Positions 56,157-64,000 of a stretch of 64,000 nt of DNA are shown one piece after another; position 1 is the first letter of the stretch, and each line of letters opens with the position of its first letter. The position numbers and the translations under genes are program-made. This DNA is from Fretibacterium sp. (GTDB lineage Bacteria; Synergistota; Synergistia; Synergistales; Aminobacteriaceae): contig JAILIX010000099.1 in assembly GCA_024695065.1 (NCBI GenBank), forward strand, positions 1 to 64,000, written 5' to 3'. The notes beneath the pieces are model-generated. The model was not told where the DNA came from. It saw nothing but the letters and a program-made list of their open reading frames with translations, and ran no database searches.

Positions 56157-56563
56157 ACTATACTTCCTCTCTCTTAAAAAAATTTTTGTAAAAAAGCCAG
56201 AAACAATAGTCAAATTAAAGCACATTCCTTTTGATTATGCAAGGTTGTTTCTCAGGCCCTGAATGCACGTCTCCGGCGGCACAGTCCCTGCCTGCATACC
56301 GGTTCTGCCCCGGTCAGATATCAGGGAACAGGGGGCAGCACTGAATGAGCGTTTTATCCTGAACCTGGCCGCTATCCCTTCATCCATGATTTTTGGGGGC
56401 TTTGCTGTGAGAATGCGGTCTGGATGTATTTAAGCCTTACTGCCTTTTATCGCAGCTTATCGCTGAAGCAGCGGTGTGCGGAACCTGCCGGCGTATGCCG
56501 GCAGGCTGGCGTTGACAGCGGTGTTTTTTCACAAAAGCCCCACGTCTGTATGTACGGAGTGCC
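56157..56563. other. Intergenic region between ABC system 2 and the subtilase remnant
   Basis: About 400 bp without a convincing gene. The part near 56160-56230 is AT-rich and should hold the system-2 promoter. A perfect hairpin CCTGCCGGC / GCCGGCAGG with a four-base loop lies at 56485-56506, downstream of the subtilase remnant, without a U-tract. Small open frames here have no ribosome binding site. Confidence 0.5.
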
Positions 56564-57392
56564 TCAGGAGACTTTCTCAAGCAGGGCCGATGCGCCCAAC
56601 AGAGCAAGGCCGTAAAGCCCCGCCAGCCCCATATCGCGCCCGCTGTGGCTGCTGCTTCCGTAAGCGGTTTCCTCCCTGATCATCTGCGGCAGGAGAGCAT
56701 ACACAGCCTTCACGTCCAGGAATCCGCAGCGTGACGTGTCATTCTTCGTCTGATGGTCAGGCCCCTTACAGACCGCTGTGTCCCTGTCGTTCCTGCAGCA
56801 GTTTCCGTTGGCCCCGTTCGGAAGAGCCTTCCTGATCTGTGCGCCCGCCGCACTGGGCCAGGCGGACTTCAGGAGTACTGCGGCACCGTTCACATGCGGC
56901 GCAGCCATAGATGTTCCATTCCAGATCACGCAGGGGACATTCTCCCCGACCTTCTCAGAAGGGTCATCACAACTGTAATCCAGCAACATGGGGCTGACGA
57001 TGCCGACGCCAGGAGCCGCAATGTCCACATAGATTCCGCCAAAACTGGAAAAGGAGGAGCGTACTATATTCCCTGAAACATCACGGCTGGCCGCCGCCAC
57101 AACAATCATGTTCTCTATGTTGCGGAAGGAGGCGGGATAGATGCAGTTGCCTTTTGTATAATTGAAATATTTTTCATCATCGCAGATGGCAGGGCAGCCA
57201 ACCCTCTGAGCGTCATTGCCAGCTGCTACGCAGATGCCGACGCCAAGGTCGCTCACTCCCTTTAACGCATTTCAGCAGAGACTCCTCCGTCACAGGCACC
57301 TCAGGGAAAGGGTTTTTGAAAATCACCAGCACGTCCCCCGTAACGGTCTGTGCTGCCCAGGCTCTACCGGCAATTGTCAACAGGCGTACCAT
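56564..57392 (-). pseudogene. Subtilisin-like (S8) peptidase remnant with internal deletion and frameshift
   Basis: The upstream part (57392 to about 57260) opens with MVRLLTIAGRAWAA, which looks like the end of a signal peptide, then QTVTGDVLVIFKNPF, resembling the start of a propeptide. The frame changes near 57255, and the downstream frame opens at the oxyanion-hole segment ICVAAGNDAQ and runs to the catalytic serine in NGTSMAAPHVNGAAVLL. The catalytic Asp and His regions, normally 100-200 residues upstream, are missing, so the peptidase cannot work. The C-terminus ends in a glycine-rich hydrophobic stretch (GLAGLYGLALLGASALL) followed by EK, like a sorting or membrane-anchor tail, which suggests the ancestor was surface exposed. 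The ATG has no ribosome binding site. Confidence 0.78.
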
Positions 57393-57419
57393 ATAGTATA
57401 CTCAGAAAACAGTTGGGAT

Positions 57420-57467
57420 GTACACAAAAGAACATACTTAAGAAAAAATACCCCATGTTTTGTGTAC
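57420..57467. repeat. Perfect inverted repeat upstream of the integrase gene
   Basis: GTACACAAAA (57420-57429) and TTTTGTGTAC (57458-57467), 28 bases apart and about 45 bp before the integrase start. It may be an operator or arm-type binding site of the integrase or an associated factor. Confidence 0.55.
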
Positions 57468-57512
57468 CTTGGTGTGGAAAGAGAAGGCTTATATGCTGAG
57501 GGGGAGAGCAAA

Positions 57513-58700
57513 GTGAAGCGAAAATTATTGACAGAGGCGACTGCGAAGAAGGCAAAGCCGGGGAAGAAACGTTATACCCTCAGTGACGGAGAGGGATTCG
57601 GTTTGGAGGTAATGCCCACCGGTTCAAAGATGTGGCGGCTGCGCTATTTTGTTGATGGAAAACGAAAACTTATCACCATGGGGGAGTATTCTGCCATGAC
57701 TTTTGAGGAGGCTCACCAAAAAGCGGAGGAACTGCGGTCAAAGCTGCAGCGCCCTGTTTCGCGTGTACGTACCCGCAAAGCCAGACAGGCAGATACGTTT
57801 CATGCTTTAGTTGAGAAATGGATATCCAGTCAGGGCACGCAATGGAGTGCTGCATATGAGAAAAAAATACGCCAGCTGCTGGAAGCACACCTGCTGCCTG
57901 TTTTTGGGGAGTGGAAATTCGGCAGTATCACGGCGTCGGAGCTTTGGACGATTCTGCGCCGCGTTGCAAACGACTCGGGCCTTGAAACGGCAGAAGCAGC
58001 ATGCAGGATATTTGGAGAGATTGCCCGTTTTGGGATGGAAACAGGGGTGTGCGAGTCTGACATTTCTTCCTCCCTGACTGATTTCTTTCCCGCCCGGGAG
58101 CAAAAACTCCTTTCGCCTGTGGCGGAGCCTGAAACGAAGCAGAAATCTTTAAAGCAGCTTTTGGAGGCAGTCTCAAAGTACAGGGGAAAGACTCCCATTG
58201 TAAGAGCGGTTCTTTGGTTTTCGCTCTATACCCTGTGCCAGCCTGGAGAGGTGCGGTGCGCAGAGTGGAAGGAGATCGACCTGGAAAAGGGAATCTGGAG
58301 GATGCCGGAGGAGAAAAAAGCCGCCCGCAAGGCCTGTTTCGTCCCCCTGTCCCGTCAGGCTGCAGAAATGCTGAAGTCGCTGAGACTGCTGACGGGGGGA
58401 TGGAAATGGGTGTTTCCGTCCTTCAGCCGCACCAATTGTCCTGTGAATGTGCTCTCCATCTATCAGGTGCTTCGGATGACGGACTTCGCAGAAAATGAGT
58501 CGTCCCCGGGCAGTCTTCGCTCACTGGAATCGGCAATGCTCAAAAATATGGGCTACGGGAAGGACATGATTGAAGCGGCACTGTCCCATGTCCAGCCGGA
58601 GGCGTGGGGAAAATCCGCTTCCGGCAAAAAATGGGAAAAGCAGGTTGAAATGATGCAGGCATGGGCAGACCGGCTGGATGAGCTGGCAGATGAGCCCTGA
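57513..58700 (+). CDS. P4-type tyrosine integrase with substituted catalytic residues
   Basis: 395 residues. The N-terminal arm-binding domain (DUF4102-like: LSDGEGFGLEVMPTGSKMWR, ITMGEYSAMTFEEA) is followed by a SAM-like core-binding domain (about 95-200) and a C-terminal catalytic-type domain. Family consensus is RPGE for the first arginine, HxxR, LxH and a tyrosine. Here the motifs read CQPGEVR (Arg to Gln), GSLR (His to Gly, Arg kept), LSHV (His kept) and KSASGKKW where AAY is expected (Tyr to Ser). It should bind DNA but not recombine. GTG 57513 has GAGGGGGA upstream; the open frame to 57216 overlaps the subtilase remnant. No tRNA or cargo genes flank it. Confidence 0.8.
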   Translation: MKRKLLTEATAKKAKPGKKRYTLSDGEGFGLEVMPTGSKMWRLRYFVDGKRKLITMGEYSAMTFEEAHQKAEELRSKLQRPVSRVRTRKARQADTFHALVEKWISSQGTQWSAAYEKKIRQLLEAHLLPVFGEWKFGSITASELWTILRRVANDSGLETAEAACRIFGEIARFGMETGVCESDISSSLTDFFPAREQKLLSPVAEPETKQKSLKQLLEAVSKYRGKTPIVRAVLWFSLYTLCQPGEVRCAEWKEIDLEKGIWRMPEEKKAARKACFVPLSRQAAEMLKSLRLLTGGWKWVFPSFSRTNCPVNVLSIYQVLRMTDFAENESSPGSLRSLESAMLKNMGYGKDMIEAALSHVQPEAWGKSASGKKWEKQVEMMQAWADRLDELADEP

Positions 58701-58822
58701 GGGGCGGGGAAGGCCGGCCCCGGGCAGAAATTCCCTCAGCACTGCCGGCAGTATTCCTTTGCCCTGCACAGTCCTGAGCCTGTAAATCCAGGGTGTAAAA
58801 TAAGCGGCGGGAAGGAGCTGTG

Positions 58823-60019
58823 ATGGATATGGAGAGGACAAACATCAGAGACGAGGCGCGGGCGCTGAACGCCCAGCTGGTTGAGTGGCGGCGCCACCTG
58901 CACAGACACCCCGAGCTGGGGTTCGACACGCAGAACACCGCGGCCTTTGCCGCGGAGCAGCTTGCGGCCATGGGAGTGTCGGAAATCAAAACCGGCGTGG
59001 GACGCGGCGGGCTCACAGCCGTCATTCAGGGAGAGAAACCGGGCGGTGTGCTGGGTCTGCGGGCCGATATGGACGCGCTTCCCATTCAGGAGGAGACCGG
59101 GCTGCCCTTCGCCTCGACTGAGGAAGGCCGGATGCACGCCTGCGGACACGACGCCCACACCGCGATGCTGCTGGGCACGGCAAGGCTCCTCTCACAGCAC
59201 AGGGCGGAGCTGAAGGGGGCAGTCAAGCTCATCTTCCAGCCTGCCGAGGAAATCGGAGCCGGCGCAGTGGCAATGATCCGGGACGGCGCTCTGGAAAACC
59301 CGAAGGTTGACGCCATCGCGGGACTTCACACCGGCAACTTCTGGACCGGCGCGTCAGCAGGAGAAATAGGATACAGCAGCGGTGCACTCATGGCTTCCGC
59401 GGACAGCTTCACTCTCTCCATCACGGGGACCGGCGGGCATGGAGCCCAGCCTGACCGCGCGGTGGACCCCATTGCCGTTGCCTGCCAGATTTACTCCACA
59501 TTGCAGACCATCGTAAGCCGTGAGGTTCCTCCCGCCCAGGCGGCCGTGATTACGGTGGGGACTATTCAGGCCGGCAGCGCCGCCAACATCATCCCCCCCA
59601 CCTGCACCATGCAGGGCACCATCCGGGCCCTCTCGCCGGAGACGCGAACGAATATCCAGAACCGAATCCGGGATATCGCCAAAGGCGTGGCTGAAGCCAT
59701 GCGGGCCAGCGCGTCCGTAAAGTTCAGCTACGGCCCCCCGCCCGTTGTCTGCGACCCCGGCATGACGGCGAAGCTCCTCCGCGCGGCGGGCACTATTGTG
59801 GGCCCGGAGCACGTCAGGCCCGTCGATGCCCCCACAATGGTGGGCGAGGATATGGCGTTCTTTTTGGAAAAGGTGCCCGGCGTGTTCTTCTGGCACCCCT
59901 CCGCCCTGAAGGAAGGGGAGAATTACCCCCACCATCACCCAAAGTTCACCATCAGCGAGGAAGTTCTCTGGACGGGCGCAGGCACGATGACAGAGCTTGC
60001 TCTGACCTGGCAGGAATAA
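58823..60019 (+). CDS. M20-family amidohydrolase (hippurate hydrolase/N-acyl amino acid type)
   Basis: 398 residues, M20D metallopeptidase-like. Metal ligands: MHACGHDAHTAML (Cys and two His), QPAEEIGAGA (catalytic Glu pair), IAGLHTG (His) and the C-terminal YPHHHPKF (His). The dimerisation lid domain spans about 180-290 (GTGGHGAQPDRAVDP). Relatives hydrolyse N-acyl or aminoacyl amides such as hippurate, indole-acetyl amino acids or N-acetyl amino acids. Starts at ATG 58823; GTG 58820 is too close to AAGGAG. It converges with the Hsp70-like gene with only one base between stops. Confidence 0.92.
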   Translation: MDMERTNIRDEARALNAQLVEWRRHLHRHPELGFDTQNTAAFAAEQLAAMGVSEIKTGVGRGGLTAVIQGEKPGGVLGLRADMDALPIQEETGLPFASTEEGRMHACGHDAHTAMLLGTARLLSQHRAELKGAVKLIFQPAEEIGAGAVAMIRDGALENPKVDAIAGLHTGNFWTGASAGEIGYSSGALMASADSFTLSITGTGGHGAQPDRAVDPIAVACQIYSTLQTIVSREVPPAQAAVITVGTIQAGSAANIIPPTCTMQGTIRALSPETRTNIQNRIRDIAKGVAEAMRASASVKFSYGPPPVVCDPGMTAKLLRAAGTIVGPEHVRPVDAPTMVGEDMAFFLEKVPGVFFWHPSALKEGENYPHHHPKFTISEEVLWTGAGTMTELALTWQE

Positions 60020-60020
60020 T

Positions 60021-61169
60021 TCACCTCACAGCCTGTTCCAGGTCGTGGACAAGACCACTGATAATCCGCAGCAGCCCGGCGTCAGGCGGAGAGCTCTCCG
60101 CCCGCTGAAACAGAAGCTGCAGGCGGTCCTGCTGGGGACGGGTCAAAAGCGTCTCAAGTTCAAGGAGGGAAAGCTTGAGCTCACGAAGCTGCTGAGCCCC
60201 ATCCCTGCCCGATTCGGAGAAGGCGGACTGCCCCTCGGGGGAAAATCCTCCACTGCCGGCCCAGACTGCCGCTCCACGGACGACCGCATCCTCCGTCCCA
60301 TGGAGCAGGTGTCTGGGTTTGGGGCCCTCCCGCCGAAGGATAGTCTTAAGCAGAGGAATGACGGCTGAACCGCCGGTTGAAATCAGGTGGTCTGGAGAGT
60401 ATGTTTTCCACAGCCGCCACACTGTGTGAATAATCCGCCGGAGTGAAAAACGGATGAGACACTCCAGATCTTCCCGGTAAATCGTCAGCTCAGGGGAAGG
60501 CCAGTCTGCCGGCGCAAGGGACACTCCACTTTCAAGGACAGGGGGTGTCCAGCGGATGGATTTCACTTTTGAGAGCTCTATCTTGATTTTCTCCGCCTCA
60601 TGAACCAGCCCAATCTGCCGCAGTTCACCTTTTCTCAGCGACAGCCGCAGCCGTGCCTGCAGCCACGCCGCCAGCGCCTCATCATAATCCCTGCCGCCGG
60701 GGAGCCCCGCCTCCACACTCTCCAGAACATGCCAGGCACCATGTCTGTAATCCACCACGGAAAGAACGGTCCCGGCACCAAAGTCCAGCACAAGGCTGCG
60801 CCCCCTGCAGCCCAGAGCCAGAGCGGCAGCGCAGGGCTCCGGGATAACCGCCGCCCTTGTTACCCCCGCAGCGTTTGCGGACCGCACCACAATCCCCTTC
60901 TGCTCCTCAGTGAGCCCCACAGGGACCGCCAGCACACAGGAGACGACAAAATCGTTCAGACAGACCTCCGCATCTTCGCGCAGAGTCAGGATAAGAGGCG
61001 TGATAAGGTCAGGCAGGGCATGCCTCGCGCTGTTTTTCCACTTCATGGCGGAGGGCATATCGGATTCTTTCAGGCGGTTGGGAATCAGCTTCACGATTTT
61101 ATCAGGCCCCGCAAAGGCAACGCTGGCTCTGTGCGTCCCAAGGTTCATTCCCACAGCAGCACCCTTCAC
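60021..61169 (-). CDS. Hsp70-like ATPase lacking a substrate-binding domain
   Basis: 382 residues, actin/Hsp70 fold. Recognisable DnaK elements: AVPVGLTEEQKGIVVRSANAAG and IPEPCAAALALGCR (equivalent to NEPTAAALAYG), the phosphate loop VLDFGAGTVLSVVD (equivalent to DLGGGTFDVS), and ISTGGSAVIPLLK (equivalent to GGSSRIPxV). The first phosphate loop is degenerate (VGMNLGTHRASVAF). The protein ends soon after the ATPase domain with a helical tail of about 60 residues, so the beta-sandwich substrate domain and lid are missing. GTG start overlaps the mtaB stop. It is not the housekeeping DnaK; its role is unknown. Confidence 0.8.
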   Translation of the reverse strand: MKGAAVGMNLGTHRASVAFAGPDKIVKLIPNRLKESDMPSAMKWKNSARHALPDLITPLILTLREDAEVCLNDFVVSCVLAVPVGLTEEQKGIVVRSANAAGVTRAAVIPEPCAAALALGCRGRSLVLDFGAGTVLSVVDYRHGAWHVLESVEAGLPGGRDYDEALAAWLQARLRLSLRKGELRQIGLVHEAEKIKIELSKVKSIRWTPPVLESGVSLAPADWPSPELTIYREDLECLIRFSLRRIIHTVWRLWKTYSPDHLISTGGSAVIPLLKTILRREGPKPRHLLHGTEDAVVRGAAVWAGSGGFSPEGQSAFSESGRDGAQQLRELKLSLLELETLLTRPQQDRLQLLFQRAESSPPDAGLLRIISGLVHDLEQAVR

Positions 61170-62506
61170 AGCACATCCCCCTCAAGACGGCCCTCTTCCG
61201 CAGAGCGCACCCGAATGCGCACAGTCTCGTTGGGCACAAGGTCTCTGTCCCCGATGTTCCACATTGCCTCAAGGAAATGCAGGGTGTGCCCGCGGCCCCG
61301 GCCCTCGCACTCCTGTTCCTCAGCCAGCACGTCCAGCTCCTGGCCCACAAAGCCCCCCGCGTAGTTCCTCAGCAGCTCGTCGCCCAGAGTCATCGCCCGG
61401 CTCACACGCTCGTCCTGCACATCAGGCGGAACAGCCCCCGGCAGCTCCGCCGCCGCTGTACCCGGCCGCAGGGAAAAGGGGAAAACATGAACCCGCCCCA
61501 TCCCAACCCGGCGCATGACAGAAAGCGTATTCTGAAACGCTGTCTCTCCTTCACCGGGAAATCCCACAAGGATGTCACTGGAGATATGCAGGGCCTTCCC
61601 CAGCCGGGCACGCGCCGTGTCACAGACACGGGCAAACTCCTCCGCCGTATAGCCCCGCCGCATGAGGGCCAGAATGCCATCGTCCCCGCTCTGCAGGGGC
61701 AGATGAAGGTGCGGACAGAACACCGGACTGTCTGCCAGAGCGTCAAGCAACGCCTCATCCAGTGAAAAGGGTTCAAGGGATCCCATCCTCAGCCGCTCAA
61801 GCCCCTCGACCCCCGACAGAGCACGGACCAGCTCCGCCAGAGAAGAGCCCGTGTCGCGGCCATAGGTCCCCAGGTGAATCCCCGTCAGGACCACCTCGCG
61901 GCAGCCTCCCTCCACAAGGCGGCGCGCCTCCTTCAGAACATTCTCAACGGGACGGCTGACCGGACGCCCCCTCAGGAAGGGAATAATGCAGTAGGTGCAG
62001 AAATGGGAACAGCCGTCCTGCACCTTAACGAAAGCCCGCGTGTGCAGGCCGGTATCCCGGAGAGGCATCTCCTCCCATCCTTCAATGGGAGGGAGCAGAC
62101 GAAGATCCTGAAAAGGACGTTCTCCTCTGTATGGAAGGGCGCCCGCCATCATCTCCAGCGCAGCCGGAAGGCGGGACTTGCCGCGGCTGCCCACCAGGAG
62201 ATCCACACCAAGGGTCCGGGCCTCACCGGCATCCACCGACTGGGCCCAGCAGCCGCAGACGGCCACCAGCCCCTCCTCCCCTACGGCGCGGCGGGCCCGG
62301 CGGACACACTGTCGGCACTTGCGGTCAGCCTCCGCCGTTACGGAACAGGTGACAAGCACAGCCGCCTCAGCCTCCGCCGGCTCACGGACCACCGACGCGC
62401 CCATCGCCTCAAGGGCGCCGGTCAGAAAGTCCCCCTCACAGAGGTTTGATCGGCACCCAAGGACGTGAATCCAGACCTTGAGGCCCTTAAGCCCCATTCT
62501 GACCAT
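61166..62506 (-). CDS. mtaB: tRNA (t6A37) methylthiotransferase MtaB
   Basis: 446 residues, radical SAM methylthiotransferase. N-terminal cluster cysteines: VLGCRSNLCEGD, VLVTCSVT and AVCGCWAQ. The radical SAM triad is QDGCSHFCTYCIIPFLRG, and a C-terminal TRAM domain (about 380-446) binds RNA. The cysteine spacing and LGCRSN form point to the MtaB (t6A to ms2t6A) rather than the MiaB branch. ATG 62506 is seven bases after the prmA stop with GAGGCGA upstream. tsaB and tsaE for the precursor t6A lie elsewhere in the window. Confidence 0.93.
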   Translation of the reverse strand: MVRMGLKGLKVWIHVLGCRSNLCEGDFLTGALEAMGASVVREPAEAEAAVLVTCSVTAEADRKCRQCVRRARRAVGEEGLVAVCGCWAQSVDAGEARTLGVDLLVGSRGKSRLPAALEMMAGALPYRGERPFQDLRLLPPIEGWEEMPLRDTGLHTRAFVKVQDGCSHFCTYCIIPFLRGRPVSRPVENVLKEARRLVEGGCREVVLTGIHLGTYGRDTGSSLAELVRALSGVEGLERLRMGSLEPFSLDEALLDALADSPVFCPHLHLPLQSGDDGILALMRRGYTAEEFARVCDTARARLGKALHISSDILVGFPGEGETAFQNTLSVMRRVGMGRVHVFPFSLRPGTAAAELPGAVPPDVQDERVSRAMTLGDELLRNYAGGFVGQELDVLAEEQECEGRGRGHTLHFLEAMWNIGDRDLVPNETVRIRVRSAEEGRLEGDVL

Positions 62507-62513
62507 ATTCGCC

Positions 62514-63413
62514 TCAGGCATGGGCCCTTCTGGCCCGGCAGCCCCACCAATCGCCGGCACGGAGCTCCCGTTCCACCGTCAGCCCCGACGTTGACAGGGC
62601 GGAGAGAAAGACTCCCCGCTCCATTTCCGTCATGCCGGAGAAAACTGCGCACCCCTTGGGCTTCAGAACCCGCTTCACGTCAGGCAGCATGGTCAGGTTA
62701 GGTGTCAGGAGGATATTGGCAGTGAGAACGTTCGCCTGAATCTCCACCCCGTTCAGCAGATTGCCAACGTCAATGTCACAGACATTGGCGCTGATCGCGT
62801 TCAGGTTCATGTTGCGGCGGACCTCATCCAGCGTCGTGGGGTCAAGGTCGCGGGCGACGGCATGAGACGCGCCGAGCTTCAGGGCAGCAATAAAGAGGAT
62901 TCCCGTCCCCGTGCCGACATCCAGAATCGTGTCCCCCTGCCGGACCGCATCCTCCAGCAGCTCAAGGGCAATCCGGGTGCTCTCATGGTAGCCTGTCCCA
63001 AAGGCCGAGGAGGGGTAAATATAAATGGGAATCCGCCCATCTTCCGCCTTGTTCTTGTGCCAGGGGGCCATGACCGTGAGGGAACGCCCCACATTCACCG
63101 GGGGGAAGGACTCCAGATGCTGTGTGCTCCAGGACTGGTTCTCCGTCTTCTGTTTGCGGAGCACCGTGATTCCCTCAAAAGAAGGGAGAAGAGTTTTCAA
63201 CCGCTCCAGCAGAGCGTCAATATCCTGCGAGCCCAGATAATCGGCACGCAGCACCAGCTTGCCATCCTCCTCCAGGAACTCTGAGCCGATCGCACCGCTT
63301 ATTGCCCCCAGAGTCAGGAGACGCTCCTCGTCCCAGGAACGGTTCTCACCGGGGGTAAGTCCAAAATCGACGGTCCACCAATAGTTTGCCGCGGCTCCCT
63401 CAAAAGGCTCCAT
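62514..63413 (-). CDS. prmA: Ribosomal protein L11 methyltransferase
   Basis: 299 residues. PrmA signatures: SSAFGTGYHESTRIALELL (family AFGTGxHxTT), the SAM loop ILDVGTGTGILFIAALKLGA, and VLTANILLTPNL (NI motif). It methylates L11 at several amino groups. Start directly abuts the stop of the PHP gene upstream. The usual GxGSGIL loop is GTGTGIL here, a common variation. Confidence 0.92.
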   Translation of the reverse strand: MEPFEGAAANYWWTVDFGLTPGENRSWDEERLLTLGAISGAIGSEFLEEDGKLVLRADYLGSQDIDALLERLKTLLPSFEGITVLRKQKTENQSWSTQHLESFPPVNVGRSLTVMAPWHKNKAEDGRIPIYIYPSSAFGTGYHESTRIALELLEDAVRQGDTILDVGTGTGILFIAALKLGASHAVARDLDPTTLDEVRRNMNLNAISANVCDIDVGNLLNGVEIQANVLTANILLTPNLTMLPDVKRVLKPKGCAVFSGMTEMERGVFLSALSTSGLTVERELRAGDWWGCRARRAHA

Positions 63414-64000
63414 TTATAATGTCCTCCTTGCATGGATAAAGTCCATCACCCTCCGGGCTGACGTGTTCAGGACCTGTTCCTCCGGAAAGCCTATCTCGTC
63501 CAGCAGCGCTGCAGCCCGCGCAGAATCTCCCACCCTCCAGCAGGTGTGCGCATCAGAATCTACCGAGACGAAAGCCCCGCAGCGGGCGCAGGCCGCCATC
63601 AGACGCTTCGCGTTCTCAAGGTGCCTCGGGCTGATGTCGAAGGCATGGTGCTCGTTGAGCTCAACGACCTTGCCCCGCGCGGCCCACACAGGCACGACAG
63701 CCTCCACATCAAAGGGATAATCCGGGGATTCAGGATGCCCGATCATGTCAATCCGGGGGTTCTCCGCCAGGGCCAGATACAGCTCTGTGTAGTCGCAGCC
63801 CTCCTCAGGGATGAGAATGTTCTCATGAAGGCTGGCGATACGCCATTCAAGCCGCTCCAGCAACCCCCCGGGCATATCCAGCTTTCCCTGTCTGTCCAGG
63901 ACGTTGATCTCCACTCCACGCAGAACAGTGACCTCTCCAATCTGCCGCGGCAGCGCTCTCAGATTGGAAAAATGAAGAATCTGACAGCTTCCGGGCATAG
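63414..64000 (-). CDS. PHP-domain phosphatase (YcdX-like), N-terminus outside the window
   Basis: About 195 codons are visible and the frame continues past the window edge. PHP-family landmarks: LRGVEINVLDRQG, DMIGHPESPDYPFD and ELNEHHAFD, and a final metal motif SVDSDAHTCWRVGD. The expected first motif (HxHT, near the N-terminus) would lie upstream of base 64000. Such trinuclear-metal phosphatases act on small phosphates; the substrate is unknown. First visible gene of a minus-strand operon with prmA, mtaB and the Hsp70-like gene. Confidence 0.85.
   Translation of the reverse strand, partial: MPGSCQILHFSNLRALPRQIGEVTVLRGVEINVLDRQGKLDMPGGLLERLEWRIASLHENILIPEEGCDYTELYLALAENPRIDMIGHPESPDYPFDVEAVVPVWAARGKVVELNEHHAFDISPRHLENAKRLMAACARCGAFVSVDSDAHTCWRVGDSARAAALLDEIGFPEEQVLNTSARRVMDFIHARRTL

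Follow-up and report, generated by a model that had tools for sequence, protein, structure and literature searches.

Tyrosine recombinases that can no longer catalyze recombination but are kept as DNA-binding proteins are already known, with MrpR, TnsF and GinC as examples. MrpR, the repressor of prophage SP-beta, has the fold of a dead tyrosine recombinase, and its authors suspect that such proteins have been recruited as transcription factors more often than thought (PMC10516654). Dead subunits with the recombinase fold also occur in multi-recombinase elements, namely GinC of GInt (PMC10214605) and TnsF of Tn6022-like transposons (PMC10293859). A regulatory role has been described for IntS of the E. 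coli prophage KplE1, which represses its own promoter, and that promoter overlaps the arm-type repeat region (PMC2951348). The dead recombinases with a retained role that we found in the literature (MrpR, TnsF, GinC) all reside within mobile elements, whereas the integrase described here lies outside one.

The window, by which we mean the whole 64,000-nucleotide stretch of Fretibacterium sp. DNA that was analyzed, encodes a P4-type (arm-binding) tyrosine integrase. The preliminary description had reported an intact frame of 395 codons, and we found no internal stop downstream of the GTG start. This start codon aligns with that of the nearest relative, L032, and is preceded by a purine-rich stretch that may serve as a ribosome-binding site. 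Pfam returned Arm-DNA-bind_3 (E 2.6e-18), the central domain Phage_int_M (1.4e-16) and Phage_integrase (1.1e-8), all scoring above the curated cut-offs and in the order typical of P4-type integrases. Sequence matches in the PDB were arm domains from P4-like integrases and a core-binding domain from a CPS-53 integrase. GC content by codon position was uninformative for this gene. Coordinates are collected in Table 1.

Table 1. Features in and around the window integrase gene (window positions).
Feature	Position	Strand	Remarks
P4-type (arm-binding) tyrosine integrase gene	57513..58700	+	395 aa, GTG start, unbroken frame
Arm-DNA-binding domain, residues ~6-85	57528..57767	+	net charge +7; K/R columns kept except R68H
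Core-binding domain, residues ~94-198	57792..58106	+	net charge -4 vs +5.4 in relatives
Catalytic domain, residues ~208-392	58134..58688	+	Q243, A270, C275, G333, R336, H359, S368/A369
Promoter-like TTGTCA-17-TATACT	57374..57402	+	upstream of integrase; consensus match only
Arm-type inverted repeat GTACACAAAA / TTTTGTGTAC	57420..57467		perfect, 28 bp between arms
Subtilase pseudogene	56564..57397	-	5'-truncated, internally deleted, frame changed; divergent neighbor of integrase
2.5-kb segment without counterpart at either edge in sister species	56277..58793		synteny comparison
M20 amidohydrolase gene	58820..60019	+	codirectional with integrase, 119 bp downstream

Catalytic residues were read from an alignment of the window integrase with 35 full-length family and order homologs. 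Four of the six are missing from the set R, K, H, R, H/W, Y that defines the enzyme: Gln243 stands in place of Arg1 and Ala270 in place of the beta-hairpin Lys, the His of HxxR is Gly333, and the Tyr position is held by Ser368 (pairwise against L032) or Ala369 (family alignment). Arg2 of the HxxR motif (Arg336) and the third catalytic His (His359) are kept, and Cys275 replaces the His before VPL. The preliminary description had listed the changes of Arg1 to Gln, the HxxR His to Gly and Tyr to Ser, all of which reappear in our alignments (Ser in the pairwise one); it had missed the loss of Lys. This is not the usual state of the P4-type family, since all six residues are kept in 143 of the 147 other full-length homologs, one is missing in 4/147, and Tyr is missing in 0/147. 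Single catalytic changes in full-length integrases were R2 to K in L033 and the replacement of Lys by R (L129), E (L149) or G (L183). Judged from the aligned residues, the loss of catalysis in the window integrase is firm, and it is the only full-length integrase predicted to be catalytically dead among the 148 proteins examined.

Structure prediction, which had been proposed earlier as a check, gave a confident AlphaFold2 model (mean pLDDT 85.9, from a 36-sequence alignment). Most of the arm domain was predicted with high confidence; the weak stretches were mainly the inter-domain linkers, residues ~326-330 and the surroundings of the lost Tyr. Foldseek matched the whole chain to lambda Int and Tn1549 Int and, at 1.1-1.4 A, the predicted arm domain to its P4-like counterparts 3jtz and 3rmp; the MrpR entry 8A0A was not among the Foldseek matches listed. 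The low whole-chain TM-scores probably reflect the arrangement of the domains in the model. The net charge of the arm domain (+7) is that of its relatives (6.9, sd 2.3), and all of its K/R columns but one are preserved. The core-binding domain, at -4, lies outside the range of its relatives (0 to 10; 5.4, sd 1.9). Since the charge of the arm domain is kept and that of the core-binding domain is inverted, binding to arm sites is plausible and binding to core sites is not. The good arm-binding signature claimed in the preliminary description therefore stands for the arm domain, whereas the net charge of the core-binding domain is inverted.

The 2.5-kb segment unmatched in the sister species holds only the integrase and the remains of a subtilase. 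The solute-binding-protein block on one side of it ends at 56276 and is found on another contig in the sister species; on the other side, positions 58793-63998 are collinear with the sister species (80% nucleotide identity), a match that breaks off shortly ahead of the M20 gene. The subtilase remnant had been noted before, and we confirm it as a Peptidase_S8 pseudogene, with its C-terminal part at 57256-56564 (minus strand) and an N-terminal piece, truncated at its 5' end and lying in a different frame, that extends up to ~57397. Intact relatives of this subtilase occur elsewhere in the genus. The suggestion that the remnant records a past insertion or deletion agrees with the synteny breakpoint, but integration at this place finds no backing in attachment-site repeats, because a search around the locus returned only scattered 13-14 bp matches, none of them att-like. 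Neither a tRNA nor element boundaries were found at the locus, and where a mobile element would have att sites, usually a tRNA, and cargo, a core genome gene follows 119 bp downstream. The integrase and this M20 gene run in the same direction across that short gap, and the plus strand between them (58700-58820) has no terminator-like site, so a joint transcript is possible. Part of a -10-like region of the M20 gene is still conserved by eye in the sister species.

The DNA upstream of the integrase carries the arm-type repeats and promoter seen with other integrases of this type, with the inverted repeat GTACACAAAA/TTTTGTGTAC sitting between the promoter-like site and the start codon. The paired site occurs only once as a pair in the whole genome, leaving no second target through which a regulon might be controlled. 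A half-site with the neighboring base pattern and one mismatch had one further genome match. Many active relatives have an inverted repeat within ~120 bp upstream of int, each with its own motif, and most have a tRNA ~200-400 bp upstream. This layout recurs among the P4-type integrases of Synergistota (e.g., L003, L064, L034, L037, L043): a tRNA, then an inverted repeat with ~30-45 bp spacing at most ~120 bp from the start codon, in a lineage-specific motif that often contains CCGTA.

The nearest relative, L032, comes from a genome of the same family, the Synergistaceae MAG RGIG3311 (goat reticulum), and L105 is the public record of the same contig. It resembles the window integrase in sequence (42% identity), in its position in the tree (the two are grouped with an SH-aLRT support of 98) and in arm repeats that share, by eye, the core ACACAAAA with the window inverted repeat. 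It differs in that all six catalytic residues are present, a tRNA-Ser adjoins the gene, and its branch is much shorter (0.70 vs 1.96 for the window integrase, the longest end branch in the 37-protein tree). No ortholog and no equally dead homolog turned up in the 83 family genomes, the 188 phylum genomes, GTDB contigs or IMG/VR, and none of these held a relative closer than 42%; the window integrase is a singleton. Several other loci came up in these searches. In the window's own genome, an arm-domain-only integrase fragment, L065, lies beside a tRNA-Ala (G000:C104:1231-1554, minus strand). L009 (G025:C31:11351-13479) is a tandem pair of P4-type integrase frames, and at L092 (G003:C107) CRISPR-like repeats (GTTTCCATACCTTAACA...) at positions ~150-330 immediately precede an intact P4-type integrase.

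The main rival to a retained DNA-binding protein is a functionless, decaying pseudogene whose frame is open by chance and whose promoter and arm repeats remain from the lost element. We hold this to be possible, if somewhat doubtful. The gene is stranded beside the subtilase pseudogene at a synteny breakpoint, and having so plain a pseudogene for a neighbor marks the locus as a place of decay, which counts against a retained function. About 35% of the near-invariant residues still present in L032 are gone from the window integrase, and this loss is similar across the three domains and depends little on the level of conservation above 50% identity, as would be expected under relaxed selection. 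In L024, an active relative on a long branch, 3% of the most conserved class is gone. By BLOSUM62, the conservativeness of the changes was not clearly different from neutral, and the protein was noticed in the first place because its frame is open, which is a selection bias. On the other hand, with four of six catalytic and ~35% of near-invariant residues lost, the loss of catalysis is old. In a simulation of neutral point mutation from five starting sequences, 26-40% amino-acid change brought ~4-12 stops on average, giving a Poisson probability of ~1e-2 to 1e-5 for the zero stops observed, before frameshifts are counted. Hydrophobic positions tell against decay as well. Among 74 columns that are hydrophobic in at least 95% of homologs, the residue has changed at 31 in the window integrase and has left the hydrophobic class at only one, against a neutral expectation of 9-11 (P < 0.01). 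The extent of change after inactivation is itself an estimate, and P was 0.017 when it was about halved. Class losses in active homologs (0-4) are at the same level as those in the window integrase (2/75). Hydrophobic classes are thus far better kept than neutral change allows, and purifying selection on the fold after loss of the active site is moderately supported; old neutral decay is unlikely to have left the frame open and the hydrophobic core intact. Of the two alternatives named in the preliminary description, recent death is hard to reconcile with a loss this old, and recruitment as a DNA-binding protein would be the better supported. Whether selection has favored the arm domain is a separate matter. 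By branch length relative to the family mean, this domain evolves more slowly than the rest of the protein, which is suggestive only; acceleration relative to the sister branch L032 is similar in all domains, and since neither that comparison nor the conserved-residue counts show preferential conservation of the arm domain, we do not claim it.

Selection could also have acted on the frame alone. If int precedes M20 in one transcript, int RNA that is interrupted or left untranslated would lower M20 expression, and this polarity might keep the frame open while the protein itself is idle. The arrangement of the two genes described above and the breakpoint at the M20 promoter region are in keeping with this, but polarity would explain neither the kept hydrophobic classes nor the charge of the arm domain, and the M20 gene may have its own promoter, given its partly conserved -10-like region. 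We regard this explanation as unlikely. Less probable again is that the window integrase serves as the non-catalytic subunit of a multi-recombinase element that is still mobile. Such subunits exist in GInt and Tn6022-like transposons (PMC10214605, PMC10293859), but the neighbors here are the subtilase pseudogene and the M20 hydrolase, with no element boundaries and no partner recombinase or transposon genes next door, and the genome has no second integrase of the P4-type family apart from a 45-residue fragment elsewhere. It is barely conceivable that the protein is still active in recombination with an unusual set of catalytic residues. Arg2 and the third His remain and the loss of Arg1 is tolerated by some integrases, but Lys and the HxxR His are lost as well. 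The preliminary description had left room for a realignment that would place a Tyr in the active site; no Tyr occurs anywhere C-terminal of His359, so realignment cannot supply the nucleophile, and an alternative Tyr is ruled out.

Our preferred reading, to which we assign a probability of about 0.5, is that the window integrase is a non-catalytic, arm-site-binding relic whose fold has been kept by selection and which probably represses its own gene. Its ancestor would have been an integrase encoded by a mobile element associated with a tRNA. The cargo, the tRNA and the att repeats are now absent, and the residue losses show that DNA cleavage has gone. The polypeptide and its fold would have been kept by selection afterwards, for which the evidence is statistical and of moderate strength. 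The N-terminal domain would bind arm-type sites, with core sites no longer engaged. Because the inverted repeat that separates its own promoter from the start codon is the only target recognized, the protein probably represses its own transcription; both this and arm-site binding are what we infer. The codirectional M20 gene may be repressed too, and a block on incoming elements that carry the same arm motif is possible. A more far-reaching version, in which the stranded integrase has become an arm-site transcription factor for an int-M20 operon and/or a blocker of elements with the same arm motif, seems to us improbable. If true, the transcription factor would parallel MrpR through its arm domain, and would do so outside mobile elements. 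A dead recombinase that lies outside an element, with a conserved fold, an inverted charge in the core-binding domain and arm sites still in place, would show an integrase reduced to its regulatory half, and further cases could be sought with a cheap sequence test: catalytic residues lost, hydrophobic classes kept.

By sequence, the window integrase is homologous to P4-type integrases yet lacks their enzymatic and element-level characteristics, and its likeness to each described system is partial. With TnsF and GinC it shares an inactivated tyrosine-recombinase domain that would be retained for a role other than cleavage by itself; those two belong to mobile elements that also carry partner genes, whereas the window integrase stands alone. 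It is like IntS (KplE1, CPS-53) in its three-domain layout, its predicted fold, and the promoter and arm-type repeats that closely precede the gene. It differs from IntS in having lost Arg1, Lys, His and Tyr, in its acidic core-binding domain, and in having no tRNA, att repeats or cargo. The likeness to MrpR, which we draw from its description, lies in a tyrosine-recombinase fold (predicted for the window integrase) from which most catalytic residues have been lost. MrpR, however, lacks an arm domain and retains Lys and Tyr; it operates in a prophage, and its DNA binding is proven. The most likely role of the window integrase resembles that of the autoregulatory half of IntS, or that of an MrpR counterpart acting through an arm domain.
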